Below are positions 1,026 through 20,930 of a stretch of 33,430 nt of DNA, one piece after another. The translations under genes were made by a program, and so were the position numbers. How positions within the stretch are numbered: position 1 is the first letter of the stretch; each line of letters opens with the position of its first letter. Source of the stretch: a virus. A model generated the notes under the pieces. That model saw only the letters and a program-made list of their open reading frames with translations, was not told where the DNA came from and did not search any database. The DNA is taken from IMG/VR virus record IMGVR_UViG_3300006917_000083, positions 1 to 33,430 of that record. One strand, given 5' to 3'.

Positions 1026-3137
1026 TTATGCAGTCCAAGAAATCACAGTGCCATCCGTTAACCCAGCGGTAGCGGCATTCGTGAAATTGGCTGTTCGGCT
1101 TGCATTTTTGTAGACGGTGATCGCTCCGGTTAGGTAGTCAATGCCGATCATTCCCGGCGTAGATTGGTCTGCGCCGTTGTCCTTGATCGGCACGCTGAAC
1201 GCCAGCGAGAACGATGGCCTGTATTTGGCCGGAAGCACCTCGCCAAAAGTAAAACTTGGCGCTGCCGTCGCAGTTCCAGTGACACTCGGCAATCTCAGCG
1301 TCACAACAATCCCATCCTTGGTCAGGTTCCAAGCTGCGGCGGTTGTAATCGCACCCGTGCAGGCTGTAGATGAACCGCTGTACTGGTCACCAGATAACCG
1401 GTAAGTCTGCTGGTTGTGACTTCCAGAGCCGGACACGCCGAGCGGATACAGCCCAGTCACTTTGGTATCGTCTGTGACCGTGTAAGACATGGATGTGCAT
1501 GTCCAGCCGGTTGAGACGACTGCATTTGTCGGCGTGTTCGCGCTGGTCTTGATGCCGTTCGTGAACCGGGTAAGGTAGGCACCGCCACCGAATGACACCC
1601 CGTCTGTGTGATCGACATCCAAGAATGAGCCCACCCCACCGGCATTGCGACCACCCCACATGCCGCCGACAATTGTGATTTGTGGGGCACCGGCCAACGT
1701 AGTTCCATCGCGGCCAATGCGGACCATTGCGTTTGTCGCGCAGTTGGTCAGGGGCGCATCCTCACCGTAGCAACCTACCAACTGCCACCCGTAGCATTCG
1801 CGCACGACGTTGATACCAGTGGCTTCGTCCGTATCTGTTGCAATCTTCGGCCACCCCGCCCCCTCGAACGTCACGCCGACAAACATGATGCAAAGACTGG
1901 CGCCATTCGTCTGGACAAGAATTGGCGCGTTGCTGATGTACCCGCCGATCCATTTGTCGGTCGTAGCCAGTCCACCGTCATAAAGAACAGACTGCACATA
2001 GTTGCTCGTCGGGTGCATCATCTCGAACAGGTTCGAGTTCGTCGCATAGCAACGAATCCCCGTTCTAAAGCCCTGAATCCGGCAATTGCGGAACGTGCTC
2101 TTGATGATGTTGTCGATGTCAAGGCCGATGTTTGAATTTCCTGCCGCGCTTGTGCTGTTGCCCTCGATGTACAGGTTCTCGATCAAGTACCCGTCTTTGA
2201 GGATGGCAGGCGATCCGGTCGGCTGGAAGAACGACTTGACCGAAGCTGGACGGAAATTGATGCACGTCCCCGAGCGAAAGCCCATGTGGCAGTGCTCGCC
2301 CGAGATCATCGTGTGATTGGGGCCTAGCAGTGTGTCAGTGATCCGGTAGCCCTTGCCTGATGCGGTAGGGGGGACGTAGACGCGCTTATTCTGCGCAGTG
2401 GCCCAGGTGATCGCGCCCTGAAATGCCGCCGTGTCATCGGTTCCGTCATCGGCCCCCATAGTGGAGTCACCCACAGCGCCATCACTGATGCCAAGCATGG
2501 GCAAGCGCACATTGATAGCGCTATCCTTGCAGAACCATCCAATGGTGCTCAACGCGTAGTTCAGGGACTGGTCTAGGCCCAACATCCCAGCGCCCTTGCT
2601 GGCGCTTGAAGTGGTGGCTAGGTCAAGCGCCAGCGCGCTGCCGCCGTCATCCGTTCGGGTGAGCATGACCGGGGCGCCGGACGAGTTGAATCCAAGCACC
2701 CGATCCGCGCGGGATGCAGGCCCTGGCAAACTCATATCCGTGTTGTCGGATGCCGGGATCTTGAGCGCCCGCGCCACTGTGCGGATGGCCCGCTGAGCCA
2801 GCATCGTCAAACGATCAAGTGCGCGCTCATGCGTCTCTGCTGGGAATGAGTCGGTCTCTGTGTAGTCAACCTCCTGCAGCGCCTCCACCTCATTGGAGAT
2901 CGTGATGGTCCCGCCTGCAGCGTATGCCGTCACCGTGGTGACAGTCCCGCCCGATGGGTTGGCCGCCCCCGTCACGCTGTAATTCGTGGTCAGCGCCAGA
3001 GTCGTTTCAACACCGGCCGAGCTGGTGTGAATGACCTGCAAATCGGCATTGGCCAGGAAGTAAAACGGAACCGTCCATGGTCCCGTTGTGCCGTTGGTCT
3101 CGTACTGGACTCGGCTATCGGTCGTCTCTACTGTCAT
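1026..3137 (-). CDS. Tail fibre/tailspike with T7 gp17-type N-terminus and beta-helix body
   Basis: This 703-residue receptor-binding protein has an N-terminal ~120-residue part (GPWTVPFYFLANADLQVI, then LTTNYSVTGA and FPAETHERALDRLTM) that follows the pattern of the T7 gp17 tail-attachment domain. A short helical linker (about 105-150) leads into a parallel beta-helix body typical of pectate-lyase-like spikes: DDTAAFQGAITWATAQNKRVYVPP is the classic entry motif, followed by many short Gly/Asn/Thr-rich strands. The C-terminus looks like a beta-sandwich. The gene lies after the internal virion proteins and before the lysis genes, as gene 17 does in T7. It likely binds or degrades surface polysaccharide; no catalytic residues can be assigned by eye. 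Its start codon is in a predicted hairpin. Confidence 0.9.
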   Translation of the reverse strand: MTVETTDSRVQYETNGTTGPWTVPFYFLANADLQVIHTSSAGVETTLALTTNYSVTGAANPSGGTVTTVTAYAAGGTITISNEVEALQEVDYTETDSFPAETHERALDRLTMLAQRAIRTVARALKIPASDNTDMSLPGPASRADRVLGFNSSGAPVMLTRTDDGGSALALDLATTSSASKGAGMLGLDQSLNYALSTIGWFCKDSAINVRLPMLGISDGAVGDSTMGADDGTDDTAAFQGAITWATAQNKRVYVPPTASGKGYRITDTLLGPNHTMISGEHCHMGFRSGTCINFRPASVKSFFQPTGSPAILKDGYLIENLYIEGNSTSAAGNSNIGLDIDNIIKSTFRNCRIQGFRTGIRCYATNSNLFEMMHPTSNYVQSVLYDGGLATTDKWIGGYISNAPILVQTNGASLCIMFVGVTFEGAGWPKIATDTDEATGINVVRECYGWQLVGCYGEDAPLTNCATNAMVRIGRDGTTLAGAPQITIVGGMWGGRNAGGVGSFLDVDHTDGVSFGGGAYLTRFTNGIKTSANTPTNAVVSTGWTCTSMSYTVTDDTKVTGLYPLGVSGSGSHNQQTYRLSGDQYSGSSTACTGAITTAAAWNLTKDGIVVTLRLPSVTGTATAAPSFTFGEVLPAKYRPSFSLAFSVPIKDNGADQSTPGMIGIDYLTGAITVYKNASRTANFTNAATAGLTDGTVISWTA

Positions 3138-3164
3138 CGGGCGGCCCTCGAAAGATGCCCGATG
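3135..3164 (-). promoter_or_regulatory. Stem-loop holding the tailspike start codon
   Basis: On the coding strand CATCGGGC (3157-3164) pairs perfectly with GCCCGATG (3135-3142), leaving a 14-nt loop. The final ATG of the right arm is the start codon of the tailspike gene. The likely Shine-Dalgarno GAGG lies in the loop. If formed in the mRNA, the stem would hide the start codon while exposing the ribosome site. The pairing is seen directly; the effect on translation is inferred. Confidence 0.55.
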
Positions 3165-3180
3165 GTTCCGCCCTCACGGG

Positions 3181-3192
3181 GGAACGTTTTTC
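3181..3192 (-). promoter_or_regulatory. Late-region box, copy A (GAAAAACGTTCC)
   Basis: The coding strand reads GTGAAAAACGTTCCCC, beginning 5 nt after the stop of the upstream internal virion protein. It is one of three copies of the same 12-mer, all just after stop codons and all followed by a stem-loop; this one is 44 nt before the tailspike start. Function is unknown: a phage late promoter or an RNA-processing site are both possible. Confidence 0.5.
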
Positions 3193-3197
3193 ACTGG

Positions 3198-5720
3198 TTA
3201 CTGGCCGGCGATGGCGCCAAAGTCAGGGGCCCGAATGTCTCCGCTTTGCGGGTCAAAGAAGTAGTCCTGCCCCCAGTCCTTGCGCGCCTTGGACTGGATG
3301 CGCGATAGGTAACCTGGGCTCAGGTTCTCTTGCAAAGCAAACAGGCCCATGTGATCGAGCGCGGCTTTTGCGTACCAAAGGTTTACAAATGGTGTGTGTT
3401 GCCGCGCAAACTTGAACGTCTCTGCACCGATGTGAGTGTCGTCCCCGTGAGCGGCCTGGTAAGCGTTCTCAAGGCCAAGCTTGACAAACAATTGCGTCAC
3501 GTCGCCAATGGCTGGTCCCGCCAGATTTCCCACAGTGTTTGAGGCTGCATCGCCAAAACTCTCGGTTGGGTCGTTCAGCAGCAAGTCACCCAAAAACCCA
3601 AGCCCACCCCCTTGAGCCAGCGCGCGAACCCAAAACTTTTGTCCGGTTGAATCGGTTGGATTGGCGCTGACCGGATCTTTACCAGACAGGATCTGCTTGA
3701 TCTGAAAAACGATGCCGCCCATGATGGTGGTGCTGATCAGCATGGCCGAAGCATAAGCGGCCCTGTTTGCCAGTATCGGCGCGCCTTGGAGGCCTTGTGG
3801 TGTGTCAACCATACGCCGCACGTGGCGCGTGATCATAGCTATAGGAAATGACTTGAACTGCCCGATCATGCGTGCAGTCTCCCCACCAAACGTGCCGCGC
3901 TGGCTGCCGCCCGCAGTAACTGCCGCGCGTGTGGCTAGGTCAGGGTCGGGGACGGCTATTTTCGACTCATCCAGAATAATCCCCAGGAACTTTGTTGCCA
4001 CATCTTGGGCGCGCTCGTGTCCTGTCGCGTAGATAGATTCCGGCGTCATAACCTGGCGGCCATTGAATGATTCGGGTACAGCCGATCTGATCACATTCCA
4101 GTCATCCTCGGTGATGCCACGTTGCTCAAGCAAAACGCGCCTGTCAAATTCGTCAAGCGCTGCCCATTCTTTGGCGTGCATCCTGCCAAAGCTCTGCATC
4201 ATCGTCAGGCTAAACGCTTCTCTGAAAGCATTCGTCCAGGCGTTGACAATACCGACCTTCATTGTGGAATTAGCCAGCCTGCCAGACCAGTTCTGAGTGA
4301 CATTTTCCGTGGCGTAGCGATTCATTGAGGCCAGCATTGTTTCGGCCATACCCAGGTGAGCATGCAGAAAATCCTGATGCTCTTTGGTCAGCACCTTCGG
4401 AACGTTTGTAAGAGCATCCCAATACGAGAGCTTGTTGAAGCCTGTCGCAACAAAATAGTTCGGTATATCCGTAAGCGCCGAAATAACTGTTTGTTGCAGC
4501 TTGGAAAAAACTTGGATGTTTCTCACCGTGTTACCAATCTGGGCCACACGTGCATATTGCGCCTGCCCTGCCTGGCCGGACAAGACTCGCCATTGGGCCT
4601 CGGCGCCAACAAGGCTGTCTTTGACTTGCCCCACAAAAGTGCTGGGCGAATAGTCGCGCTTTGCCAAATCAAACTGCATGCGCATTTGCGCATCTGGGTT
4701 TGGCCCATACCTTTCGACCAATGCAATGTCCTTTGCAATGCCTCCGATATGGCCCGTCATCGCGTCATACATCGAGCCAGATCCGAACTCACTCAAGTAT
4801 TGAATGTAGGCCTCACCATCCTTGAAGTGGATTTCGCGCGACTCGCTGCCCCGATTGGATCTGGCTCCCGTACCGCGTGCAGAACCAGGCTCGCTTTTAT
4901 TTGCTCCTGCGCTGCTGATTGTGTTCCACGCCCCGCGAAGCATGTCGGCGATTTGTGTGTCCGGCATCCTGCTTCCGTCCTCAAGCACGTACTTGTTTTT
5001 GTCGAGAAGGGGGAATGTCTTGCTTACCCAAGCGTCAACACCTGCGGCCAAAACCTTCGCCTGGTCGTGCGCCTGCGGCAAGTATCCGTACAGCAGTTTG
5101 CCGATATCTCCACCCGCAGCGTTGAAACGTTGGCGCATTTTCTCAACCACGGCAAGCCATGCTTTTGCACCAGCAACAGCCAGTGCATTGCCTGTGCCGC
5201 CGTTTCCTTGCGCAAAAACCTCCGTCGCCAAATCTCGCGTCATCTGCGGGTTTTCCACATCGAACAGGAATGCCATTGCCCGCCCTTTGAGTGAAACACC
5301 CTCAACATCCTTGATGGCCGAAACCAAGTCCATCAGGCTTCGCGAATAGTCGTTCTTGATGGCGCTGACTTGCCCATCCGTGCGTGCCAAGTGCTCACGC
5401 AATGCCTTCGGCCTATTCGCGCCGTTGGTGGACTGGTACTGTGCAAGTTCAGCCTCAAGGCGTGCGGACGCCAGCGCCTGCTTTTGCGCGTTCTCGATCT
5501 TTCTGGAAGCTTGTGCGGCCAGGTCGGCGGATGCGGCTTGAGCAGCCAGCAGCGTTCGCTGATCAGAAGAATAACCGCGCCAGTTGGGGTCGGTTTGAGC
5601 CAGGAATCTGGCTTTCCCGGTGATCATTGACTCGATTTTGTCAGCCTGGGCAGCAGTCAAAGGCCTGCCACCCGCCGCAATTCTTGCTGCATTGATGGCC
5701 TGTTTGCATTTAGGATTCAT
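3198..5720 (-). CDS. Large internal virion/ejection protein (T7 gp16 position)
   Basis: This 840-residue protein lies between the 649-residue ejection protein and the tailspike, where T7 has gp16. Residues 1-130 are helical and rich in Ala, Gln and Lys (coiled-coil-like); the middle is polar and helical. A hydrophobic run at about 654-673 (ASAMLISTTIMGGIVF) could enter the cell envelope during DNA ejection. The C-terminus is Gly/Asp-rich. No lysozyme or transglycosylase catalytic motif is evident. The start is the ATG preceded by AAGGTGATCACCC, a good ribosome site. By position it probably travels in the capsid and helps form the DNA ejection channel. The virion role is inferred from synteny rather than a recognised domain. 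Confidence 0.75.
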   Translation of the reverse strand: MNPKCKQAINAARIAAGGRPLTAAQADKIESMITGKARFLAQTDPNWRGYSSDQRTLLAAQAASADLAAQASRKIENAQKQALASARLEAELAQYQSTNGANRPKALREHLARTDGQVSAIKNDYSRSLMDLVSAIKDVEGVSLKGRAMAFLFDVENPQMTRDLATEVFAQGNGGTGNALAVAGAKAWLAVVEKMRQRFNAAGGDIGKLLYGYLPQAHDQAKVLAAGVDAWVSKTFPLLDKNKYVLEDGSRMPDTQIADMLRGAWNTISSAGANKSEPGSARGTGARSNRGSESREIHFKDGEAYIQYLSEFGSGSMYDAMTGHIGGIAKDIALVERYGPNPDAQMRMQFDLAKRDYSPSTFVGQVKDSLVGAEAQWRVLSGQAGQAQYARVAQIGNTVRNIQVFSKLQQTVISALTDIPNYFVATGFNKLSYWDALTNVPKVLTKEHQDFLHAHLGMAETMLASMNRYATENVTQNWSGRLANSTMKVGIVNAWTNAFREAFSLTMMQSFGRMHAKEWAALDEFDRRVLLEQRGITEDDWNVIRSAVPESFNGRQVMTPESIYATGHERAQDVATKFLGIILDESKIAVPDPDLATRAAVTAGGSQRGTFGGETARMIGQFKSFPIAMITRHVRRMVDTPQGLQGAPILANRAAYASAMLISTTIMGGIVFQIKQILSGKDPVSANPTDSTGQKFWVRALAQGGGLGFLGDLLLNDPTESFGDAASNTVGNLAGPAIGDVTQLFVKLGLENAYQAAHGDDTHIGAETFKFARQHTPFVNLWYAKAALDHMGLFALQENLSPGYLSRIQSKARKDWGQDYFFDPQSGDIRAPDFGAIAGQ

Positions 5721-5722
5721 GG

Positions 5723-5914
5723 GTGATCACCTTTTTAAAGACTACCGCTGCCGTTCTCGCCTTGACCATGGTCGTGCTCGTCACGGTTGCCGCCATGTCT
5801 TCGTCATGGAAAGCCGGGTTTCGCGCCTGGTCTGAGTACATGAAAATCATGGGCAGCATGTTTCTGATCGCTGCAGCTTTCTCTGGCGTCTTCATCTTGT
5901 TATCCAAGATTTAG
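5723..5914 (+). CDS. Possible two-TM small protein, opposite to the late operon
   Basis: A 63-codon frame with a GTG start (AGGA 7 nt upstream) exactly fills the only sizeable gap between the late genes for the 649- and 840-residue proteins. It encodes two clear membrane segments, about residues 4-24 and 41-62, separated by a short polar loop (SSSWKAGFRAWSEYMK). Its stop overlaps the stop of the convergent minus-strand gene by a few bases. The third codon position is about 70% G/C, but a minus-strand frame over the same bases scores similarly (about 67%), so the strand is unresolved. If real it would be a lone antisense gene, for example a superinfection-exclusion-type protein; nothing shows that function directly. 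Confidence 0.33.
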   Translation: MITFLKTTAAVLALTMVVLVTVAAMSSSWKAGFRAWSEYMKIMGSMFLIAAAFSGVFILLSKI

Positions 5915-7860
5915 GCGCCGTTGACCAAGAAACACGACGCGGCCACCTGCATCAGCGGCGCATCGTTGGCACCAAGCTCGAAGTCTGTTCCCTCCATTGC
6001 CTCGCGTTGAACTTGCTCGAGGAAATCGGAGAGCTTGACGGGGCCATCCATCCCATCCATTTGGACGGTCAGATCCGGAAATTGCGCTTGAATGTCGGCC
6101 AGGCGCTGGCCCACCACTGTGGCTTCGGCGGCATCACCTCCGGCTCGGGAAACTCCACCTGACCCCTGCTCTCTTGCTCCTGCTGGCGCAGCGCTTCCCG
6201 CATCCGCTGCTTGCGGCTGGGCGGCTTTGGCTGGCTGCTGCGGCGCAGCACCTGCTGGTGTGTCTGCTGCTGGCTTCTGTGCGTCTTGGACATTGGCCGC
6301 CTCCTTGGTGGTGGCGGTGGTCGCACCCTGAGGGTCAGGTGCGGATTTTTCACTCAGTAGCTCATCGCCGTAGCGTTGTCGTTCACCGTTGAACCTGTCG
6401 ATTACCGCCCTTTTAACCTCTTCCCACGTCTTGAACCCGGCGCCCTTGAAATTACCCACTTCAAAGTCAGGAACACTGTGCAGTGACATCGCATTGCCGG
6501 TCTGTTGGTGATCTGCAAAACGCACCGTGACAGTGTCACCGCTTACTGGGTCGTCTATCGTCACGTAGCGTGAACCGGATTTTGACGAGCCTGATTCTTT
6601 GGTGGTTAGACCTATGGCTTCAAAATATGCGGACAGGTTTTGATGAGGGGCGTAGTGCGGCTGCGGCCCGAAACCTCGGAACGCTTCAGTGGCAGCATTT
6701 CCCTGATCCGCGCCCGTGCGCTGCTCACTATTTGGGTCGGGCTTAGTGGATTCCGACACGGCCTCAATTCTGGCAGCAAATTCGGCTGGAACGTCGCCGC
6801 GCGCCACATCCGCTACCTGCACCCGCTCACCCGCTGCCAGTTGATCCATGGCGCGGGTCATCGCCTCATCATGAGCACGCGCTCCGGCCATGTCTTCAGG
6901 CGGTGTCAGGCGGGCGCTTTCCATGTGCTGGCTCAGCATCTCCACGCGGGCGGCGTCAACCTGCTCCGGGGTTGGTCTGGGTGGGCCAATTTCCGCAGAT
7001 GCGCGATCTGATGCAATGGCCGCCTCCATCCTGGCAGAGGCCTCAGTGCTTGCGCGCTCACGGATCTTGGCACCACGAAGCGCAAACGCACCGAATCCAG
7101 CAGGAACCAGCATGGACACGGCCAGGCCTACAGGGTCGAATGGGTCGTACTGCATACCTATCTGGTCATAGCCGGCGTCCTGCAGGATCTTGCGCGTCGT
7201 TGCCTGTTGGGCCATGAATGCGCCAGGTCCACCTGTAGCCACTAGGGCCGCAGTCTGCGCAATGTTTTTACCGGCCACAGGCATCAATACGCCTGCCGCA
7301 CCAGCCACACCTGAAACGGCACCAACGGCCGTGCGCGTGTTGATGTCTACGCCCTGATCTTTCAGTTCCTGAGCAGCTGTCAAGCCTTCGTCCACGCCGG
7401 TCAACCCAGCGCCAACCACCGGCCCACCCATTGCGGTATAGCCAACCGCCTTGGTTGCGAATCGGCCAAGCCCAAATACCAGCGTCTCTGATGTGTGCGC
7501 GCTCTGCGGGTCAGGCATGAACTGCTTTGCCGCGCGGCGGAACTGATCGCCAGCATCAAACACCGGGCCAGTTTCCCGCAGCGCAGATGTGGCTTTTTCT
7601 TCCGCCTGGCGCTCGGCTTCTGTTTGGCTGGCGAACATGGCAGACCGCGAATCGGTTGCAGCCATGATCTGACCAAAAGCCCCAAGGATGTCGGCCGAAC
7701 TGCCTGTCGCTTCTGTGGCACCAACTGCCACGCCGCGAGGTGCTGCCGTTGTGAACTTCCATGCGTTGAACTTGGCTGGCGCCTGCTTTGCCGCCGGCGG
7801 TCTGGCAATCAGATCATTGACGATGGCCTCGTTTTGAGAGGCATACAGGTCATCGAGCAT
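5911..7860 (-). CDS. Internal virion/ejection protein, Gly/Ala-rich
   Basis: This 649-residue protein is encoded between two other large ejection-type genes. Residues ~110-280 contain long Gly/Ala-rich weakly hydrophobic stretches (YTAMGGPVVGAGLTGVDEG, GAVSGVAGAAGVLMPVAG, LVPAGFGAFALRG), consistent with membrane insertion during genome delivery. Residues ~280-420 are helical and charged, and ~500-570 is a Pro/Ala/Gln-rich linker (AAPQQPAKAAQPQAADAG). The start lies 11 nt inside the end of the upstream gene, with AAGGTGG as ribosome site. It probably shares the gp16-type role with the 840-residue neighbour, in effect a split or duplicated ejection gene. No enzymatic motif was seen. The assignment is by position and composition. 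Confidence 0.7.
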   Translation of the reverse strand: MLDDLYASQNEAIVNDLIARPPAAKQAPAKFNAWKFTTAAPRGVAVGATEATGSSADILGAFGQIMAATDSRSAMFASQTEAERQAEEKATSALRETGPVFDAGDQFRRAAKQFMPDPQSAHTSETLVFGLGRFATKAVGYTAMGGPVVGAGLTGVDEGLTAAQELKDQGVDINTRTAVGAVSGVAGAAGVLMPVAGKNIAQTAALVATGGPGAFMAQQATTRKILQDAGYDQIGMQYDPFDPVGLAVSMLVPAGFGAFALRGAKIRERASTEASARMEAAIASDRASAEIGPPRPTPEQVDAARVEMLSQHMESARLTPPEDMAGARAHDEAMTRAMDQLAAGERVQVADVARGDVPAEFAARIEAVSESTKPDPNSEQRTGADQGNAATEAFRGFGPQPHYAPHQNLSAYFEAIGLTTKESGSSKSGSRYVTIDDPVSGDTVTVRFADHQQTGNAMSLHSVPDFEVGNFKGAGFKTWEEVKRAVIDRFNGERQRYGDELLSEKSAPDPQGATTATTKEAANVQDAQKPAADTPAGAAPQQPAKAAQPQAADAGSAAPAGAREQGSGGVSRAGGDAAEATVVGQRLADIQAQFPDLTVQMDGMDGPVKLSDFLEQVQREAMEGTDFELGANDAPLMQVAASCFLVNGA

Positions 7861-9940: not shown

Positions 9941-10408
9941 TCACCCTTGCGTTTTGTTGAAATCGGATATCGACTTCTGCCCGTAGTAGTTGCCGGCTGC
10001 CTTGCCTAGCGTTCCGAACACGCTGAGGTATGCGCCCTTGCGCGCATTTTTAGAGCTGGCACGCAGTGAAGACGCTTCGTTTTCGTAGCCAATGGTTTGC
10101 AGCTGTCCTTTGTAGCGCTGGGTCATGATGTCAAGTTCCGTCTCGGCGGCGCTGCGTTTTTGCAGATCAAGCAGCGAGCCAGACGACGCATCAAAACCAG
10201 ACTCAGCTGCAGCGGCGCGGACGTTTCCAAGCTCGATGGCCTGGCGGCGGCGTAAGGTTTCCTCGTTGGCATTACTTTGCAGGCGTGAGGTTTCAGCCGA
10301 GGCGCTGGCTTGCTCTGCCGCTTGGCCGTACTGCCTAGCCTGCCCTAAACCTTGGGTCAGGTCAGACACCGACTGCATGCCAGCAGCCGCCGCTTGGAAA
10401 TAACTCAT
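9941..10408 (-). CDS. Small internal virion protein (T7 gp14-like)
   Basis: This 155-residue protein has an Ala/Gln-rich helical N-terminal half (GQARQYGQAAEQASASAETSR), the motif AAAESGFDASSGSLLDLQ near residue 65-82, a helical middle and a Gly-rich, weakly hydrophobic end (GAYLSVFGTLGKAAGNYYGQK). This pattern recurs in gp14-type core proteins of podoviruses, which enter the outer membrane during ejection. Its start overlaps the stop of the gp13-like gene by 4 nt (ATGA) and has AAGGTGAAACG upstream. The order 13-14-15-16 supports the call. Confidence 0.75.
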   Translation of the reverse strand: MSYFQAAAAGMQSVSDLTQGLGQARQYGQAAEQASASAETSRLQSNANEETLRRRQAIELGNVRAAAAESGFDASSGSLLDLQKRSAAETELDIMTQRYKGQLQTIGYENEASSLRASSKNARKGAYLSVFGTLGKAAGNYYGQKSISDFNKTQG

Positions 10409-10830
10409 CGTTTCACCTTGGCGTACAAATAAGCGCTTTTGCCGTTCTCGAAAAACTTAGCCATGGGCTCAGGCGTCTCCAGATCGAACCCGATCAATTT
10501 GGCGAACCGTTGCCCCGGCAAGAATTGAGCATCGACAGCCATTTCAATGCGGGTGAATGGTGATGCGTCCAAGGTGGAACGAATTGCACGGCTGATGTGC
10601 AGCATGTAGGGCCCCGCGTCGTGGCCAAACAGGGCCCAGGCATAGGCCCGGCCTCGCCACATCTCAATAAGTCCGGCAGCCATGACGGGATGGCCATCGA
10701 CAAGAATGGCCCACCCTAGCCCTGGTGGTCGATCAAGCGACTCTAGTTCAGCCTCTTCAACCTGGCTGGGCTGCACCCTGATTTGGCGTAGATGATCGTC
10801 ACCGAGATCGACAACGGTGATCGGCATCAT
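10405..10830 (-). CDS. T7 gp13-like protein, GNAT-type fold (DUF2833-like)
   Basis: This 141-residue protein is close to the 138 residues of T7 gp13. It has the pattern of a degenerate acetyltransferase fold: LGWAILVDGHPVMAAGLIEMW (strand pair), then helical HISRAIRSTL and a late RFAKLIGFDLETPEPMAKF. No acetyl-CoA loop (Q/RxxGxG/A) is seen, so catalysis is unlikely. In T7, gp13 is needed for virion assembly or maturation. It sits between tail tubular B and the gp14-like gene with 4-nt overlaps on both sides. Either of two adjacent ATGs could start it; the first has GAGGG upstream. Confidence 0.7.
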   Translation of the reverse strand: MMPITVVDLGDDHLRQIRVQPSQVEEAELESLDRPPGLGWAILVDGHPVMAAGLIEMWRGRAYAWALFGHDAGPYMLHISRAIRSTLDASPFTRIEMAVDAQFLPGQRFAKLIGFDLETPEPMAKFFENGKSAYLYAKVKR

Positions 10831-13764: not shown

Positions 13765-13819
13765 CTAGGCTCTCCTTGATGGAATTTCGCAGCGCGTAGG
13801 ATGGGCCGGAGGTCATGGC

Positions 13820-15526
13820 TTACATCAGCGAGTTGGCCGAGTCGTCAAGATAGATTGCACCGCTGGTCATGTTGGCTGTGTCAATCTCAATCGCTATGAC
13901 ATCTGACGTCATCCGAGAAGACCACGTTGGCCCTGACAACACGTCCTTCCAACCCACTCGCTCAAATTGGTTGGTACCACCAAGCGTGATGGTCTTTGTG
14001 GCTGATGAGTAGCTATTGCGGGTATCGGCTGAAACGGTGATGCCGGTTGAGCCGTCCCACTTCTGGACCACTGTGCAATCTCGTTGTTTGACGGTGATCG
14101 TTGTACCAACCCCCTGACTCACATTTAGGAACAATCCCCACTGAAACCGCCGCGATGGATCGTAGTTCGGGAAGCTGATCAGAACCTTTCCAGCTCCTGT
14201 GATCTTGAGCATATTGCCGGTGCTGTTTCTGGCGGTTACCCCGCCGTCCGTAGTGCCCACGCTCGCCACGGCAGCCGTGCCGGTCACGACAATACGCTTG
14301 CTCAACTCACTGTGCGGATCGTCAACGCCGTTGCGCTGGAAGTTGGCGCCAGGGCCGTTCGTCAAACTGATGAACGTCGGTAGGTCGTTTAGCGAGTTGT
14401 TGTGCGCGATCAAGTTGCGGCACACGACGTGACCAATCGAACCAGTTCCGTTGCTGGATGAGCCGATCACCATTTGATCGTCGTTCGTTGGCTGGCCTGT
14501 ACGCCCCAGATTTGAGCAACGCACGTCCTCAATGATGATTTCCTGCGAAGAGTTATCGCTAGAAATCATCCCGTTAAACAGGTATGTTCGCGTCGTGCTC
14601 GGCGTGCCGAAATAGCCGCCCTTCATGATCAGTTTGGTGTTCGCACCAGTCAGCCGGATCGGGCTATTGGTCTGGCCTGCGACTAACCCGTACTCCCACT
14701 CTTGGTGGCATGCGTACAGTTCGGCCACAGTACCAGCTTGTAGGTCAAGGCTCCGGTCGCTGGCAGTAATCCGTCCACCAGTTTTGTCGCCGAAATAGTC
14801 AAGGGAAACGGCTTGTAGCGTGAATCGGTGGCCCGCGAGCGACTTGATTAGCGTGTCGCAGTTGTAAATCGCACCGCCTTGGAAAGTCACGTTCTCGGCG
14901 TAGTCGGTCACGCCTGACTCAAATAGCAAGCCCGTTCCGCATGTCTTTGCGTACACCTCGTAACCCTTGAGCATGTAAGCCCGTGAGCCTACTGAGATCC
15001 CGGTCCCAAAGGAATCCACAAAAACGTTGCGCATCGCGCAGCGCACGCTCGAGTTGTTGATTGCCGTGTTGGCGCGGATGCCGACCGCGTTGTAATCGCG
15101 CGTTGAGCCGCTATTGCCTATGACATATACGTCATCAACAAACGATGAGAACGGGTATTGTGTGCCGTTGTCGCCGTTGGTCGTGTTGGTGAGCAGAATT
15201 GCCTCATTTGCCGCCGATAGGCTTTGGGCATTGAGCTTGGAGCGGTTGCCATCAACGCCTACCACTCCGGTCTCAATAGCCCAAGTGTCCCCAAGTGTGT
15301 AAGACCCAAACGGGTCCAGCTTGATGACCCCAAACGGGAACCGAGCTTGCAGCCATGCCACCGCCTCATTAAGCTCTACGTCCCCGCTACCGCTTGGCAC
15401 ATGGTAGTAGCCATAGGTCTGCCCAAGCGCCAAATCGCTCGCATCATCCAGCACGGTCTGGCCGGTTGAGTTAACCTTTTTGCGCAGCGCATTGAGCGGG
15501 TTCAATGGAAATGTGAGCCCACTCAT
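13820..15526 (-). CDS. Second beta-helix tailspike / putative depolymerase
   Basis: This 568-residue protein has a short N-terminal anchor-like part (about 1-40), then AVAWLQARFPFGVIKLDPFGSY and TWAIETGVVGVDG, an entry into a parallel beta-helix. Residues ~100-400 are repeats of short strands with conserved Asn/Gly/Val turns (FVDDVYVIGNSG, MRNVFVDSFGTGISVG, NVTFQGGAIYNCDTLIKSL), the style of polysaccharide-degrading tailspikes. The C-terminal ~150 residues look like a beta-sandwich. It lacks the T7 gp17-type N-terminus of the other spike, so it may attach through the adjacent 91-residue protein or another site. Its position between capsid and tail-tube genes is unusual. Catalytic residues cannot be assigned by eye. 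Confidence 0.8.
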   Translation of the reverse strand: MSGLTFPLNPLNALRKKVNSTGQTVLDDASDLALGQTYGYYHVPSGSGDVELNEAVAWLQARFPFGVIKLDPFGSYTLGDTWAIETGVVGVDGNRSKLNAQSLSAANEAILLTNTTNGDNGTQYPFSSFVDDVYVIGNSGSTRDYNAVGIRANTAINNSSVRCAMRNVFVDSFGTGISVGSRAYMLKGYEVYAKTCGTGLLFESGVTDYAENVTFQGGAIYNCDTLIKSLAGHRFTLQAVSLDYFGDKTGGRITASDRSLDLQAGTVAELYACHQEWEYGLVAGQTNSPIRLTGANTKLIMKGGYFGTPSTTRTYLFNGMISSDNSSQEIIIEDVRCSNLGRTGQPTNDDQMVIGSSSNGTGSIGHVVCRNLIAHNNSLNDLPTFISLTNGPGANFQRNGVDDPHSELSKRIVVTGTAAVASVGTTDGGVTARNSTGNMLKITGAGKVLISFPNYDPSRRFQWGLFLNVSQGVGTTITVKQRDCTVVQKWDGSTGITVSADTRNSYSSATKTITLGGTNQFERVGWKDVLSGPTWSSRMTSDVIAIEIDTANMTSGAIYLDDSANSLM

Positions 15527-15798
15527 TTGACCTGCTCCGCTTGCGCATACATACCAGACGGAGGGCCGCCGCTGATGGCTGCACGAATCTGGCCAGGTGG
15601 CAGCACAAAGCCGCCACCGCCATTGGCGGTCAGCGTCGTGTCAGAGCCAACAGCGACCCATGTGGAGCCATCGGGGCCAAGAAACTGCAGCGTGACAGTT
15701 GCGCCACTGAACGTGCCGCATGCAGAAAAAACACCAGCGCCACCGCCCCACTGAGCAGCAGATCCGGTGGCACTTGCGTTGCTCAGAAGTTGAGGCAT
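15523..15798 (-). CDS. Small beta-rich structural protein, unknown role
   Basis: This 91-residue protein is Gly/Ser/Thr-rich, with FSGATVTLQFLGPDGSTWVAVGS followed by GFVLPPGQIRAAISGG. This pattern is common in small phage structural proteins with a beta-sandwich-like fold. It overlaps the start of the second tailspike by 4 nt (ATGA), so the two are translationally coupled and it may serve as adaptor or chaperone for that spike. CTGGAG lies 6 nt before the ATG. The structural role is inferred; no enzymatic motif was seen. Confidence 0.65.
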   Translation of the reverse strand: MPQLLSNASATGSAAQWGGGAGVFSACGTFSGATVTLQFLGPDGSTWVAVGSDTTLTANGGGGFVLPPGQIRAAISGGPPSGMYAQAEQVK

Positions 15799-15811
15799 GC
15801 GCTACTCCAGA

Positions 15812-16006
15812 TCAAACAGGTGGGAACGTGTCTTCGACAATGCGGTACTCAATCTGCTCCAGCAGTTTGAGCGCCTCTTGCTTGGTCATGCCGGTGGCGT
15901 CATAGGTGATACGCACCTCGACACTTGCGCCGGCAGTGGTGGACGCGGTTTCAGCGACCAGCGTTTTGTCCTGCCCCAGGCTGGCGCTGTAATAACGATT
16001 GGCCAT
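15812..16006 (-). CDS. Small unknown protein between decoration and tailspike genes
   Basis: This 64-residue soluble protein (MANRYYSASLGQDKTLVAET... VEVRITYDATGMTKQEALKLLEQIEYRIVEDTFPPV) has predicted beta strands followed by one helix (TKQEALKLLEQIEYRIV). The start is well supported by AAAGGGG before the ATG. It lies 13 nt upstream of the 91-residue gene and after a GC-rich stem-loop. The family is not recognised; small proteins in this place of podovirus genomes are often virion components. Confidence 0.6.
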   Translation of the reverse strand: MANRYYSASLGQDKTLVAETASTTAGASVEVRITYDATGMTKQEALKLLEQIEYRIVEDTFPPV

Positions 16007-16026
16007 GTGTGACCCCTTTCAAGAGC

Positions 16027-16048
16027 GCGGGGCAGCGAACCGCCCCGC
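16027..16048 (-). promoter_or_regulatory. GC-rich stem-loop after the decoration gene
   Basis: The coding strand has GCGGGGC pairing perfectly with GCCCCGC around an 8-nt loop, 12 nt after the decoration-protein stop. No U-run follows, so it is not a classical intrinsic terminator. It may stabilise the upstream capsid/decoration mRNA or reduce read-through to the following small genes. The inverted repeat is seen; the function is inferred. Confidence 0.5.
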
Positions 16049-16059
16049 CGTGTGAACGA

Positions 16060-16602
16060 TCAGCGGACCACGTAGACGCGCACCAGGGCCGTGCCTGTGC
16101 CATCGCAGGCGCCAGTCAGGGTCAGTGCCACGTCGTACTCTTTGCCGGGGTCGGAGGACAGGCCGAGCATTTCCCACACACGCTTTTCAGCGTTGGTGAT
16201 CAAGCCACCTGCTGCGCCTGCCTCGAATGTCAGATCGGTGTTGGACAGCGCGCCATCCTTCAGCGACACAGACGACGCGAAAAAGTCTTGATCGACCACC
16301 GTGCCGCCATTGCTGTGGGTCAGCAAGTCGTACAGGCCAACGTCTACCACCGTGGTTGTGCCCATGTCTGCGGTGGTGTCGATGCGCACGCGGTCGATGA
16401 AGTCGTCCGAGCGGATCTTGCCAACGCGGTATGTCGATGCGCCGGCAGCCAGGGTAGCCGCTTCAGTGTTGCCACTGGTGAGCGTGACCAGGCCATTGAC
16501 AGCACGAATAACCTGACCACCTTCAATGCCAACCGTGTTCTGGGTGCGCGGGGTCGTGTTGGCGTTGGTAACCGCCGTGCTCTTGATTGCAACTTGTGCC
16601 AT
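16060..16602 (-). CDS. Putative capsid decoration / head protein
   Basis: This 180-residue Thr/Ala/Val-rich, mainly beta protein (VAIKSTAVTNANTTPRTQNTV, GKIRSDDFIDRVRIDTTADM, YDVALTLTGACDGTGTALVRVYVV) is encoded immediately after the major capsid gene. A strong AAGGAG precedes its ATG. Short beta-rich proteins directly behind the capsid gene are usually head decoration or stabilisation proteins, which bind the shell from outside. No named family is recognised, so this is inference from place and composition. Its coding is followed by a GC-rich stem-loop. Confidence 0.6.
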   Translation of the reverse strand: MAQVAIKSTAVTNANTTPRTQNTVGIEGGQVIRAVNGLVTLTSGNTEAATLAAGASTYRVGKIRSDDFIDRVRIDTTADMGTTTVVDVGLYDLLTHSNGGTVVDQDFFASSVSLKDGALSNTDLTFEAGAAGGLITNAEKRVWEMLGLSSDPGKEYDVALTLTGACDGTGTALVRVYVVR

Positions 16603-16629
16603 TTGATTTCTCCTTGTGGATCAGCCGGA

Positions 16630-17517
16630 TCAGGCTTCAGAGCACTTGATTTCGATGACCTTCTTGGCATCACGGCGAACTGCGCCAAAGTGGCCCTCTC
16701 CGTAGACTTGCCAAGGCTGGCCGCGCAGGTCTTTGCGTTGGTCAACGCTGGTCTTGATGCCACCGTCCCAGGTGCAGAAGGACATGCCCTTGCTGGTGAA
16801 GAAGGGGATGCGGCGATAGCTGGATGCGTCCGTCAGCAAGCGATTGCTGATCACCCAGTTGATGCCCATGAAGCCAGAGCCGAACATGGTGCCCTTGTCG
16901 ATGATCATCTTGGCCGTGAAGTCGGAAGAGGTCACCTCGATCTCGTTCATCAGGTTGCGCTCTTGCTTGGGGCTGATGATGCAGTTGAGCTGCTCACCTT
17001 CGACCTCGTTTTCACGCAGGATCTGCAGGGCGTTCTGGATCTTCTCGACGTTCAGGCCGGACGCGGTGCCTCCGACGTTCACGCCAACCTGATAGGACGA
17101 CGAGAACGAATCGGTGGTGCTGCCAGCTTCTCCGACATTTCGGTCAGCGAAGAATGCGCGAATGGCTTCGTCATCCATCTTGCGGTTCAGTGCAGCGATC
17201 ACGCCCTGCACATACTCGCTGGTGGGGTTGGCGTTCATTTGCATCTGCTCGATGCTGTCGAACGGGATGGCCTTGTCGAAGTGACGCGGGTACACCCATG
17301 GGCGGTTGTGCGTGACCGATCCAAAGACAATGTTGTCGTACAGAGACGAGCGTTCATCGGCCTCGAAGGCGTCGATCTGGTTGACGACAGTCGCGGCTTT
17401 GCCAACGGCGGTCATGGGGGTAAACAGCGATGCAACCTTGGGTGTCAGTTGCTGGGCCAGCAGCTCAACGGCGGAGGCGTATTGCTGGCTGTAAAAAGCA
17501 TTAGATCCGGTGGCCAT
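16630..17517 (-). CDS. Major capsid protein
   Basis: This 295-residue protein has a helical N-terminus (FYSQQYASAVELLAQQLTPKVASLF), then the extended-loop-like segment SVTHNRPWVYPRHFDKAIPFDSIEQM. The later core, from IIDKGTMFGSGFMGINWVISN to GQPWQVYGEGHFGAVRRDAKKVIEIKC, has the pattern of HK97-fold capsid proteins of podoviruses. It sits between the scaffold and decoration genes. The start has AAGGAGAG. The preceding 177 bp contain box B and a stem-loop, giving it a long leader suited to high expression. Classification as major capsid protein rests on size, place and sequence pattern. Confidence 0.85.
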   Translation of the reverse strand: MATGSNAFYSQQYASAVELLAQQLTPKVASLFTPMTAVGKAATVVNQIDAFEADERSSLYDNIVFGSVTHNRPWVYPRHFDKAIPFDSIEQMQMNANPTSEYVQGVIAALNRKMDDEAIRAFFADRNVGEAGSTTDSFSSSYQVGVNVGGTASGLNVEKIQNALQILRENEVEGEQLNCIISPKQERNLMNEIEVTSSDFTAKMIIDKGTMFGSGFMGINWVISNRLLTDASSYRRIPFFTSKGMSFCTWDGGIKTSVDQRKDLRGQPWQVYGEGHFGAVRRDAKKVIEIKCSEA

Positions 17518-17621
17518 GTTGGCTCTCCTTGGACAGTTACAGGTCAGGTTTTTGTTCGCCTGGCTTGTCCCAATCGGGGGCCTGCTTGCGCTTGTCGTGC
17601 GCCACCCGAGCCGCTTGCCGG

Positions 17622-17658
17622 CCAGCTATCGGGGCCCGTGGGCTTATCCGATGGCTGG
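17622..17658 (-). promoter_or_regulatory. Stem-loop in the major capsid leader
   Basis: The 177-bp gap 17518-17694 before the capsid gene holds no convincing gene. The coding strand has CCAGCCATCGG pairing with CCGATAGCTGG (10 of 11 positions), loop 15 nt, located 19 nt after box B and about 105 nt before the capsid ATG. It resembles the stems found behind the other two boxes and may act as a 5' mRNA stabiliser. Confidence 0.5.
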
Positions 17659-17677
17659 ACTTTCTGTCTTCAGGAGA

Positions 17678-17691
17678 GGAACGTTTTTCCC
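17678..17691 (-). promoter_or_regulatory. Late-region box, copy B (GGGAAAAACGTTCC)
   Basis: The coding strand reads AAGGGAAAAACGTTCCTC, 3 nt after the scaffold stop codon. It shares 17 consecutive bases (AGGGAAAAACGTTCCTC) with copy C and the 12-mer core with copy A. It is the only striking element upstream of the capsid gene apart from the stem-loop that follows. A phage late promoter is the favoured guess; function is not shown by the sequence. Confidence 0.5.
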
Positions 17692-17694
17692 TTG

Positions 17695-18594
17695 TTAGAG
17701 GGTGCTTGAAATAATGCGGTCGAGTCGTTGCAGCTCGGCCCATTCGGCGCTGTTGGGCACCATGGCTTTTGTGCGCCATCCAGCGTCTGCCATCAGTTGC
17801 GTGCGCTTGGCCTTGGCGCCTTCTGGCGTTGTGCCAAAGGAGCCGATCTCACCCAGGCCTTCGGCGCCGTGCTCGCGCATGAGGTCACCCACCTTGGCAA
17901 ATGCCTTCATGACCTTGGAGAAGCCGGCCACCTTTTCCATGGCGTTGACAGCCTGCTCATCCAAACCCAGGTTCAGGCATGCACGGCGAGCCAACTCACG
18001 GCGCGCGTCAGCATCAGGTCCGGTGCCCCAGTCCTTTTGTAATGCTTGGTGCTCAGCCTCAAGTGCGGCTTGCTCGGCTGCCTGCTGGGCTTCTGTCATA
18101 CCGGCGCCTGTAGCCTGATACCACTCCATCAGGCCCTTTGCCTGGCTTGCGCTGATGCCCAGTTTGTGGAACTGCTCAGCGGCAGCCTTGGAGAACGCAG
18201 GATCGGCGCCTTGCACTTCGCTGAGCTTGTAGCCATCTGGCGAGGTTGGCCGACCAAGCTTGTCATACAGGGCTCCCCACTCAGGCGCTGCGGGGTCAGT
18301 TGGCACTGTGATGGTTCGACCAGCACGATCTGCGCCAAGCAGCTTTTCCAGTTCGCGGTGGCCTTTGATGGCATCGACCGGGGATTGCCACGCCTTGTTC
18401 TGGACATGACCAACCATCTCGGCGTCGACATCGGCGGGGAGCCATGCGATGCCATGGCCTACGGGTGGTTGTGCAGCAGCGCCAGCGCCTCCACCGGGTG
18501 GCGTAGCTCCACCATCACCGGCAGGTGCGCCACCAGGGGCGCCGCCGCCGTCACTGGCTTGGTTCATCAGAATGTTTCGCTTGAAGATGTTCAT
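17695..18594 (-). CDS. Scaffolding (capsid assembly) protein
   Basis: This 299-residue protein has a disordered Gly/Pro/Ala-rich N-terminus (SDGGGAPGGAPAGDGGATPP) followed by mostly helical charged sequence and a helical C-terminus (WAELQRLDRIISSTL), the profile of T7 gp9-type scaffolds. It sits between portal/Bbp19-like genes and the major capsid gene. The segment AWLPADVDAEMVGHVQNKAW and YDKLGRPTSPDGYKL occur in many podovirus scaffolds. Its first ATG overlaps the upstream stop (ATGA); a second Met nine residues in is a possible alternative. Confidence 0.8.
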   Translation of the reverse strand: MNIFKRNILMNQASDGGGAPGGAPAGDGGATPPGGGAGAAAQPPVGHGIAWLPADVDAEMVGHVQNKAWQSPVDAIKGHRELEKLLGADRAGRTITVPTDPAAPEWGALYDKLGRPTSPDGYKLSEVQGADPAFSKAAAEQFHKLGISASQAKGLMEWYQATGAGMTEAQQAAEQAALEAEHQALQKDWGTGPDADARRELARRACLNLGLDEQAVNAMEKVAGFSKVMKAFAKVGDLMREHGAEGLGEIGSFGTTPEGAKAKRTQLMADAGWRTKAMVPNSAEWAELQRLDRIISSTL

Positions 18595-18965
18595 TCGTCA
18601 TTGCTCCTGTAGGCTGCGATTCGTTCGATCTGTTCTGTCGTGAGGTTGCACATGGCCGTGATTCGGTTGAAAACATCGCGGCGGCCTTCCGCGAATGCCA
18701 TTGCGTAGGGGTCTGTTTGCTGCGTTGAAGGGGACACCTTCATGGTGGTTTTGCCCACGTAGCAATAGGCGGCCAGGTCGCGCAGCACGATGTCTCCAGC
18801 AGGAGATAGCGCGTGCGCCTTGGGCTTGCGCCAAAAGGCCCACCATGGCGCCGTGTCAACGTCCTGTTTCCCCTCTGGTGCGCGTGTCACAAACAGCGCT
18901 TGATAGGCGAACATGCGATGGTGCATGCGAGCGCGGATGCGCTCAAACGACTCATTCCAGGCCAT
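18591..18965 (-). CDS. Bbp19-like phage protein
   Basis: This 124-residue protein has a Trp/Arg-rich middle (DTAPWWAFWRKPKAH) and the segment GDIVLRDLAAYCYVGKTTM ... DPYAMAFAEGRRDVFNRITAMCNLT, which matches the pattern of the Bbp19 domain known from Bordetella phage BPP-1 and relatives (LxDLAxFC, then AFxEGRRxVxxxI). Its molecular function is unknown. It sits between portal and scaffold, so it is probably a head-associated or assembly protein. AAGGGTAATCC precedes the ATG. Confidence 0.7.
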   Translation of the reverse strand: MAWNESFERIRARMHHRMFAYQALFVTRAPEGKQDVDTAPWWAFWRKPKAHALSPAGDIVLRDLAAYCYVGKTTMKVSPSTQQTDPYAMAFAEGRRDVFNRITAMCNLTTEQIERIAAYRSNDE

Positions 18966-18975
18966 GGATTACCCT

Positions 18976-20598
18976 TTAGAAGCCGGGGACCAGGCCGCCA
19001 GCGGCTTGCACCTTGGCCATGTTCGCGGCGGTTTGAGAAACGACGGGGGCAGCCTCAAGCAGTTGAGCGGCCTGTTGATCAGTTGCGCGCTTTTCCTTGA
19101 GCGCCTTCAGCTCTTCGATGTCCCGCAAGCACTTGGCTGGCATGCCGTTGATTTCTCCAATCTCGCGGGCGCATTCGTTGAGGTCGAACGAATCCAGCAC
19201 GCTTGGGTCAATTTGCGCCATGGGGGTGACAGCTTCCAGGGTGCGTGTGATGGCAATGGCCTCAGATGAGCGCATGGCCCGACGCATGGGGCTGGTGTAT
19301 TCGATCTTGTACTCGCCTTCAGCCTCGATCAACTCGGGCGGCATTGGTGGCAGCTGGCCAGCATGCACAAGCAAATCAAGCTCTCGCTCTGTCATTGGGC
19401 TGAAGTGCTCAGACTCATAGCGGCTGACGATGGGCGCCATGATGGTCGCGCGCTCGTTCATCAACTCCATTGTCTGGGTGGCCGTCATGTTGGGATGCTC
19501 GACCAGCACGCGGAACACGTCCATCATGAAGGCGCCCGCGATGATCTCGCGCTCTTTGTCCATCATGTCCAGGCCGATGCCGACATTGGCGCCAGTGATC
19601 AGCGGTTTTACAAGCTGGTTTCCTTGGCTGTCCAGCCCACCATAGTTCACCGCTCCGGGCACCTGCGAGAATGCAGACAGCACGCCGTCCTCTGAGGCAA
19701 GCAACGGGGGATCGACCGCCTTCTGTGCAGCCTGAAGGATCGACTTTTTCTGTGCGTTTAGCACCTTGATGGACGACAGTGCCATCCATGCAGGAGAGCG
19801 GCCATAGACCTCGCCGGGGCTGGTCATGTAGCGATGAAAGCCAAACGGCCAGGATCGATAGCCGCCCTCTTCCAGAACGAACTTGTCGTGGCCAGGAAGG
19901 TAGTAGCACGACGCCCATGGCATGCCGTGGTAACCCAAACGCTCAGGGTCTACGTCATCACGCGGGCACACGATGTGGACGATCTCCACCATGTCATCTG
20001 CGCGACTCTCCAGCTTCTGGCGCAAGGCGTCAGGGATGCTCTTGAAGCGGGATGCAATTTGGCGGATCGTCCATTCCCAGCAGCGGTACACCGTATCAAT
20101 GCGACCATCTGCACCCTCCACGATGTACGTGCGGGCCAGGCTCAGCGACTTGTAACGGAAGCAGCGTCGCTTGATGTCCTCATCAAGGAACATGCCGCCC
20201 GTGCCGAACACAAACGAGGTCAGGGCCGACTCGCTCATTTGGGACTCGAAGGCAGCGCGAGGCGAATAGCGTGCCTCGAACAGCTTGTCTGTGGCGTCAT
20301 CAAACCAGGCTTTGACGCGCTGGATTTTGTTCAGCTCTTTGTTGTTCGTGGTCAGCTTCTGATAACGCTGATTCGACGGCCAAGCAAAGGCAGCAATTGC
20401 AGACACCGCCTTTTGTGCAGCCAGGCCGGCCGTGGGGTCGAACATCTTTTCTGTCCGCTTGGCGCCCTCGGCTTGCCGCGTGTTGAAGTCAGCCATTTGA
20501 GGCATGACACGCTCGGCGATCTCCTGAAAGGTCGTGTCCCAGTTGCCGCGCTTTGCCTTGACGCGGTCAAACGCACGCATCCGCGATTCGTAGTCCAT
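18976..20598 (-). CDS. Portal protein (head-to-tail connector, T7 gp8 type)
   Basis: This 540-residue protein is close to T7 gp8 (536). Conserved connector features include RGNWDTTFQEIAERVMPQM, FDPTAGLAAQKAVSAIAAF, the Trp-rich PWASCYYLPG and YRSWPFGFHRYMTSPGEVYGRSPAWMAL, and AFMMDVFRV ... MTATQTMELMNERATIMAP. It forms the dodecameric ring through which DNA is packed and ejected. A GTG one codon upstream (20601) could also start it; GGGGGAG is close to both. It overlaps the preceding 90-residue gene by 3 nt (ATG and stop share bases). The Head-tail_con family call is confident. Confidence 0.92.
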   Translation of the reverse strand: MDYESRMRAFDRVKAKRGNWDTTFQEIAERVMPQMADFNTRQAEGAKRTEKMFDPTAGLAAQKAVSAIAAFAWPSNQRYQKLTTNNKELNKIQRVKAWFDDATDKLFEARYSPRAAFESQMSESALTSFVFGTGGMFLDEDIKRRCFRYKSLSLARTYIVEGADGRIDTVYRCWEWTIRQIASRFKSIPDALRQKLESRADDMVEIVHIVCPRDDVDPERLGYHGMPWASCYYLPGHDKFVLEEGGYRSWPFGFHRYMTSPGEVYGRSPAWMALSSIKVLNAQKKSILQAAQKAVDPPLLASEDGVLSAFSQVPGAVNYGGLDSQGNQLVKPLITGANVGIGLDMMDKEREIIAGAFMMDVFRVLVEHPNMTATQTMELMNERATIMAPIVSRYESEHFSPMTERELDLLVHAGQLPPMPPELIEAEGEYKIEYTSPMRRAMRSSEAIAITRTLEAVTPMAQIDPSVLDSFDLNECAREIGEINGMPAKCLRDIEELKALKEKRATDQQAAQLLEAAPVVSQTAANMAKVQAAGGLVPGF

Positions 20599-20870
20599 CA
20601 CTCCCCCAGCAGCTGCTTGGCTGCAGTTGTGGGTGCCGCCATCTTGTTGGGGCTCGTCAGGATGGATGCGGCGCGACCTTTGCGGCGGCGAAGCATATCG
20701 GCCTGAGCCTGAGCCTTGGCCTGAGTGTCCTCAATGACAGGCGGAGCGCCAGGGGCTTCCAGATTTGCCTCAGCGTGTTGCATAGCTTTTCCAGCCGCTA
20801 ACGCGGTCGCTCCGCCAATGCCACCGAGCCCCAGAGTTACCAGCGATTGAACAGGTTTTTTGAGTGACAT
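20598..20870 (-). CDS. Small virion/assembly protein in the T7 gp7.3 position
   Basis: This 90-residue basic protein has a Gly/Ala-rich N-terminus (LGLGGIGGATALAAGKAM) and the C-terminal motif MLRRRKGRAASILTSPNKM ... TAAKQLLG. The RRRxGRAxxILT pattern is frequent in small podovirus proteins encoded just before the portal, and is reminiscent of the basic tail of T7 gp7.3, a virion/tail assembly factor. It follows box C and a stem-loop and is coupled to the portal start. The role is inferred from position and composition. Confidence 0.6.
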   Translation of the reverse strand: MSLKKPVQSLVTLGLGGIGGATALAAGKAMQHAEANLEAPGAPPVIEDTQAKAQAQADMLRRRKGRAASILTSPNKMAAPTTAAKQLLGE

Positions 20871-20873
20871 GGG

Positions 20874-20905
20874 CCCACCATTGCGATAAACACCTGCATG
20901 GTGGG
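20874..20905 (-). promoter_or_regulatory. Stem-loop ahead of the portal block
   Basis: The coding strand has CCCACCAT pairing perfectly with ATGGTGGG around a 16-nt loop, ending 3 nt before the ATG of the 90-residue gene and starting 11 nt after box C. It repeats the box-plus-stem design seen at 3135-3192 and 17622-17691. It may protect the 5' end of the mRNA or control ribosome access. Confidence 0.5.
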
Positions 20906-20916
20906 TTTGCTGACGA

Positions 20917-20930
20917 GGAACGTTTTTCCC
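20917..20930 (-). promoter_or_regulatory. Late-region box, copy C (GGGAAAAACGTTCC)
   Basis: The coding strand reads TAGGGAAAAACGTTCCTC; the TAG is the large terminase stop codon, so the box abuts and shares one base with the gene end. It is identical to copy B over 17 bases. It lies 47 nt before the start of the portal block. Confidence 0.5.

Follow-up and report, generated by a model that had tools for sequence, protein, structure and literature searches.

A genome-specific box and a -10-like hexamer at fixed spacing mark putative late promoters in a group of short-tailed phages

Boxes at the late gene borders

The window (the whole 33,430-nucleotide stretch of viral DNA analysed here) had no match in a megablast search for its nearest phage DNA. 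One short sequence, GAAAAACGTTCC, occurs in it exactly three times, always on the minus strand (3181-3192, 17678-17689 and 20917-20928), as an earlier note on this DNA had counted; the reversed pattern has no match anywhere in the window. Each copy adjoins the stop codon of the preceding gene, the stops ending at 3198, 17695 and 20930. The copy at putative late promoter C (box GGGAAAAACGTTCC, 20917-20930; core AAAACG at 20921-20926) directly follows the terL stop and is followed by the portal gene. The copy at putative late promoter B (box GGGAAAAACGTTCC, 17678-17691; core at 17682-17687) lies a few bases past the stop of the protease gene, upstream of the major capsid gene. The copy at putative late promoter A (box GAAAAACGTTCC, 3181-3192; core at 3185-3190) begins five bases past the stop of a gene encoding an 840-amino-acid virion protein and is followed by the tail fibre gene. 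The neighbouring genes, identified by PHROG matches, are those claimed earlier, as is the agreement of copies B and C over 17 bases (both AGGGAAAAACGTTCCTC).

Six first-order Markov genomes modelled on the window contained no 10-mer that was present three times on one strand with a shared NANNNT hexamer downstream. The same search of the window itself recovered the GAAAAACGTTCC-type box and nothing else, and a chance origin of the three boxes is excluded.

A -10-like hexamer 17 nt past the box

In the window, a hexamer of the form NANNNT lies 17 nt past each box core on the minus strand: CACCAT at promoter C (20898-20903; predicted +1 at about 20891), GAAAGT at promoter B (17659-17664; predicted +1 at about 17652) and AACCAT at promoter A (3162-3167; predicted +1 at about 3155). 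Among 38 non-redundant elements from 13 genomes, 36 have NANNNT at exactly this distance, as compared to four or fewer at each of the other offsets between 3 and 44 and a background of 2.7%. By site, the rule holds for 13/14 C, 13/13 B, 6/6 A and 3/3 D elements (site D is described below). The C sites were located from gene position alone. For six of the B sites, the initial search used a pattern that contained part of the hexamer; searches with the box alone recover the same sites. Two one-mismatch box matches were left out of the set: one in G003, on the opposite strand and lacking the hexamer, and one in G005 that has it.

The A at position 2 and the T at position 6 correspond to A-11 and T-7, the two most conserved bases of the bacterial -10 element, and -35 and -10 elements are usually spaced 17 bp apart. 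An A is nearly always found at position 4 or 5 as well. The hexamers typically match TATAAT at three of six positions (a poor -10 match), and T-12, which is present in BPP-1, is almost never found in the window family, where G, C or A takes its place. The hexamers of this family would therefore be weak -10 elements. The idea that the hexamer is a mere complement of the AUG was rejected, as all 13 B sites have the hexamer with no start codon nearby.

When the entire window is scanned with a weight matrix, A, B and C score 27-31 bits, a weaker site D scores 13.4 bits and the next match scores 7.7 bits. Site D (10557-10585, minus strand; core AATTCG, hexamer CACCAT) is located inside the coding sequence 10405-10830. 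It ranks fourth among the matches in G003, G012 and G014 as well, and third in G008. As this site falls within a conserved stretch of protein, the conservation of its position may be due in part to protein coding. The conserved part of the element as a whole is a box of 12-16 bp plus a -10-like hexamer at fixed spacing. Judged from its sequence, this is the anatomy of a sigma70-family promoter in which the -35 element is replaced by a phage-specific box.

Related phages have their own boxes at the same borders

The earlier note had proposed a search of relatives, and such a search shows the boxes to be conserved in place. Relatives with approximately 55-67% portal identity have boxes at these three borders too, namely past the end of terL and ahead of the major capsid and tail fibre genes. 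G003, G012, G014 and G008, which are partial to near-complete records (that of G008 stops near the third site), have GGGAAAAACGTTCG or a near-identical box at the three borders and no match to the reversed pattern. More distant relatives have other boxes at these borders: GGAATCCGTTCC in G027, GGGAAATCCGTTTCC in G028, CCCAAACCCTTCC in G029 and GCGCAAACCCTTTCC in G030. Further boxes of their own are found in G031 (ACAAACCCTTGT), G006 (CGGCAAAACGTTGCCG), G010 (GTGCAATCCGTTTC) and G005 (GGGCAATCCGCGCCC). No relative was confirmed within a bacterial genome.

The box core AA-WMCS-TT is common to all of these genomes except G005, which has CG instead of TT. The arms on either side of it are genome-specific and form an imperfect inverted repeat in most genomes, G029 and G030 being the exceptions. 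Arm similarity is 0.93 between copies within a genome versus 0.60 when copies are permuted among genomes (P<0.0002). The spacer and upstream flanks, which score 0.30-0.31 in this comparison and have an identity between copies of 0.28-0.35, are as unlike within genomes as between them. Only the box is thus kept uniform within each genome, as a trans-acting reader would enforce.

Cultured phages with the same layout

The layout is also found in cultured phages. BcepC6B has the sequence CGCAC[GT]AT[CT]CTGCG exactly three times (2775, 5546 and 18982), and the hexamers 17 nt downstream (TAGTCT, CAATCT and CAGCAT) all conform to NANNNT. BPP-1 has GGGTGCCCGTGCC exactly four times on the late strand (26295, 24133, 20748 and 6186). 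One copy lies at terS, one past terL, one ahead of the protease/capsid genes and one ahead of bbp9-mtd-avd-brt. The BPP-1 hexamers (AAAACT, TACTGT, TAGAGT and TAGCCT) are all NANNNT at one common spacing. A motif search made without prior knowledge recovers both the BPP-1 and the window motifs, with Markov controls nearly empty. Alcaligenes phage Piluca, in which boxes were found after the candidate HTH family described below had been detected, has four CACCCAACAAA boxes with a less strict layout: at 17 nt, three are followed by NANNNT and one by TATATA. At the last of the BPP-1 places (L186 6186), the box and a perfect terminator-like stem-loop precede the bbp9-mtd-avd-brt operon, with the -10-like TAGCCT in the loop.

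The earlier note knew of no described element with this sequence. Consistent with this, no published description of it, and no account of BcepC6B or BPP-1 late promoters, was found among open-licence PMC papers. On the same literature, the layout in well-known phages such as BPP-1 is apparently undescribed, as is late-gene activation in BPP-1-like and BcepC6B-like podoviruses in general, even though BPP-1 is the model for diversity-generating retroelements.

A candidate regulator encoded next to terS

The proposed reader of the box is a 121-amino-acid helix-turn-helix (HTH) protein whose gene (22909-23274, minus strand) immediately precedes terS. An HTH gene of this kind is found upstream of terS in 11 of the 11 genomes searched (29-47% identity over the aligned stretches). 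Among the early-region genes of the window that were tested, it is the sole regulator-like gene found in all relatives. The protein is basic (pI 10.3) and matches only phrog_16553 and phrog_17493, in the PHROG category "transcription regulation" with the label "transcriptional repressor". It has no Pfam match and by sequence belongs to none of the RinA, ArpU and Ltr families. Its predicted fold is lambda-repressor/Xre-like (mean pLDDT 80.5, with the helix-turn-helix part clearly higher), with modest fold matches. BPP-1 does not have this HTH family; a different HTH gene, bbp27, is found at that place, which fits the differently built box of this phage.

Distances between boxes and distances between HTH proteins are correlated (r 0.44). 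Coevolution of the two beyond phylogeny is not supported (partial Mantel r 0.12, P 0.17). From the position, universality and kind of the protein, we infer that it is paired with the box and is the likely box reader. An RNA polymerase or sigma-like gene outside the window had previously been proposed for this part; the partner is instead probably this HTH gene inside the window.

Proposed mechanism of late gene activation

The boxes are probably the -35-position elements of three to four HTH-activated late promoters that would be transcribed by the host RNA polymerase. The phage-specific late promoter suggested in the earlier note is thus strongly supported by the rigid spacing of box, 17 nt and NANNNT, by the conserved sites and by the genome-specific boxes. 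The proposed model is as follows. The HTH protein, expressed from the early operon just before terS, would bind the genome-specific box, centred near -31. The bound protein would place sigma70-holoenzyme on the degenerate -10 element (NANNNT), which follows the core at a distance of exactly 17 bp. The portal, capsid/tail and tail-fibre blocks would each be transcribed from a start point of their own. Since an inverted repeat would enclose the -10/+1 region, read-through RNA would carry a whole stem-loop, which at some sites would hide the AUG of the next gene. RNA started at the promoter would lack the 5' arm, leaving the start site exposed.

The box and HTH protein could also act in the opposite direction. 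The boxes would then be repressor operators, for lysogeny or for late timing, located over ordinary sigma70 promoters, and the HTH protein would shut the late genes off. The PHROG label of the HTH family agrees with this reading, and the integrase of several relatives shows them to be temperate. A parallel is found in epsilon15 and phiV10, which have a repeated TTACCT..AAGGTAA dyad (L188 2931-2947 and 19895-19911; L187 3252 and 20877) at borders homologous to C and A. In epsilon15 this dyad is annotated "repressor" and is found ahead of terS and the tail fibre gene, past terL and in the early region. However, the 17-nt rule fails in both epsilon15 and phiV10, and their dyad, unlike the box, extends to the early region; at these borders, the two phages have another solution. 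In BcepC6B and BPP-1, the cI/cro regions contain no exact box (a role as cI operator was rejected for this reason), and in the larger relatives the box is confined to the late gene region. Furthermore, the box occupies the -35 position and leaves no TTGACA-like element, so that the promoter should be weak unaided. Repression by the HTH protein is therefore unlikely, and we infer activation instead.

Stem-loops at the putative promoters

The stems described in the earlier note were confirmed letter by letter (3157-3164/3135-3142; 17648-17658/17622-17633, with one mismatch or bulge; 20898-20905/20874-20881). Stem-loop C (20874-20905, minus strand) has 8 bp and a 16-nt loop and spans the predicted +1; it does not sequester the start codon of the following gene, located just past it at 20870. 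Stem-loop B (17622-17658, minus strand) follows promoter B and forms the first domain of the long capsid-gene leader. Stem-loop A (3135-3164, minus strand; arms CATCGGGC/GCCCGATG) has a Shine-Dalgarno-like GAGGG in its loop and the tail-fibre AUG in its 3' arm.

At the usual distance from -10 to +1, transcription would start within the stem-loop and give leaders of mostly 16-23 nt, Shine-Dalgarno sequence included. If +1 is as predicted, stem-loop A would form only in read-through RNA. If the elements are promoters, the hairpin is not the 5' mRNA stabiliser proposed earlier: with the predicted +1 inside it, RNA born at the promoter would be without the 5' arm. A hairpin spanning +1 is also not a distinctive mark and was rejected as such, since 205 of 258 random windows of GC-rich genomes do likewise.

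When compared to shuffled sequences, read-through RNA is predicted to have a fully paired AUG at 12 of 22 A and C sites (combined P 5e-9, the sequences being related). The mean unpaired value for the start codon is 0.28 in read-through RNA, 0.52 in shuffled RNA and 0.68 in promoter RNA. Sequestration is found at window A and is missing at approximately 10 of the 22 sites, including window C. In the leaders of T4 gene e, soc, 49 and I-TevI, read-through RNA similarly folds over the start site, and the late promoter starts transcription in the 5' side of the hairpin so that promoter RNA is open (PMC3014915). Unlike in T4 gene e, the predicted hiding of the AUG is not universal here, and the genes are structural, for which the benefit would be less evident. 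A U run follows the stem-loop of BPP-1 A and of Piluca, with the -10 in or beside the stem-loop; with this U run, the structure resembles an intrinsic terminator.

These structures raise the question of whether the whole element is an RNA signal, in which a box hairpin and the second stem-loop would act on polymerase or translation, for example by put- or nut-like antitermination. The box arms are imperfect inverted repeats that covary in several genomes (such as G028 and G006), every copy is oriented along transcription and the second hairpins fold at low energy (z averaging approximately -1.8 to -1.9), all of which would be expected of such a signal. In contrast, an NANNNT at a fixed 17 nt would have no role in it, the boxes of G029, G030 and BPP-1 lack self-complementarity, and several sites (G005 C and G029 C) have a weak second hairpin or none. 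Rfam has no match at the elements (to E 5). RNAalifold gives no common fold for the C hairpins; for the A hairpins, it predicts 12 pairs, two with double changes. An RNA signal is accordingly a quite improbable explanation.

For the promoter reading, a broader form can be put forward tentatively, as possible but not quite probable: a late-gene switch may be common to a large group of short-tailed temperate phages, BPP-1 and BcepC6B among them. An exchangeable HTH gene beside terS would read a phage-specific box at several promoters dispersed over the late genes, these promoters would lie inside hairpins that silence or terminate read-through RNA, and late genes would be translated only from their own promoters. 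If so, the mtd/diversity-generating retroelement operon of BPP-1 would be under the control of this switch too.

Comparison with known systems

In T7, the late promoters phi6.5, phi10 and phi17 precede the connector, capsid and tail-fibre genes. T7 encodes its own single-subunit polymerase, which uses a 23-bp promoter. Although the boxes are placed much as T7 late promoters are, it is hardly credible that a T7-like RNA polymerase or a phage-encoded sigma factor uses them as promoters, since hexamer and spacing are those of a host-type holoenzyme and nothing is conserved upstream of the box (identity 0.28-0.30). The T7-type promoter to which the earlier note had compared the elements would be a single continuous conserved sequence of approximately 23 bp up to the start, and this is absent, given the low spacer and upstream identity noted above. 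PF00940 (single-subunit RNA polymerase) gave no match in 11 records, with a control search that was also silent, and none of the early ORFs conserved in relatives is long enough for such a polymerase. A phage sigma factor was rejected as the reader because no Sigma70_r2 domain (sigma region 2) was found in ten genomes, in a search in which the controls matched.

In T4 middle promoters, a MotA box centred at -30 replaces the -35 element and the sigma70 -10 element is kept (PMC2988021), a mode known as sigma appropriation. The shared features are a phage box near -30 in place of -35, a -10 at a fixed distance and several copies per genome. In contrast to T4, the box here differs from phage to phage, the proposed reader is an Xre-like HTH protein rather than the double wing of MotA, the genes are late, and the -10 element is weak where that of T4 is an excellent match. 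The placement of the HTH gene resembles that of late regulators such as RinA and Ltr of Gram-positive phages (PMC13123087). Like RinA, Ltr and Alt, the HTH protein is small, basic and encoded directly upstream of terS. Those proteins act on one promoter for a single late transcript, via direct repeats upstream of -32, whereas here there are three to four promoters along the late region, the box overlaps -35 and the host group is different. By analogy, the elements would work like T4 middle promoters with a regulator placed like RinA/Ltr; by sequence, they belong to neither system.

The rule of box, 17 nt and NANNNT gives exact coordinates for putative promoters in cultured phages, together with a predicted regulator. 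It also predicts that box and HTH gene are exchangeable as a pair. Fast change of the box with conserved spacing provides a natural series for the study of regulator/site co-evolution.

The capsid-gene leader and other genes of the window

Past promoter B, a conserved structured RNA (17554-17626, minus strand; core GGCGCACGACACGCGCAAGCGAGGCCCCCGNAAGGGACANGCCAGGCGA) is found in the leader of the major capsid gene. The same RNA is found in other phages (L107 13240-13314; L119 4171-4245). The leader is 160-195 nt long and has a strongly conserved and covarying fold with 26 predicted pairs, nine with double changes. This RNA has no Rfam match (to E 1); a covariance model additionally recognises it, with a weaker match, in a phage whose portal shows only 39% identity. 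On the other side of the capsid gene, a 91-amino-acid protein (15523-15798, minus strand) is conserved at 46-68% in nine relatives and has no PHROG match.

A 608-amino-acid ORF (26599-28425, plus strand) has no family match and is probably not a gene. A Cro/CI-like HTH gene (28132-28368, minus strand) is located in the early control region, which suggests a temperate ancestry; no integrase is encoded within the window. A RecE-like exonuclease and a RecT-like annealing protein are encoded at 30688-32703 (plus strand), with close relatives in G012 (54-67% identity). The protein encoded at 26851-27372 (minus strand) has a Tad2-like domain (Thoeris anti-defence 2; Pfam PF11195, E-value: 4e-27).
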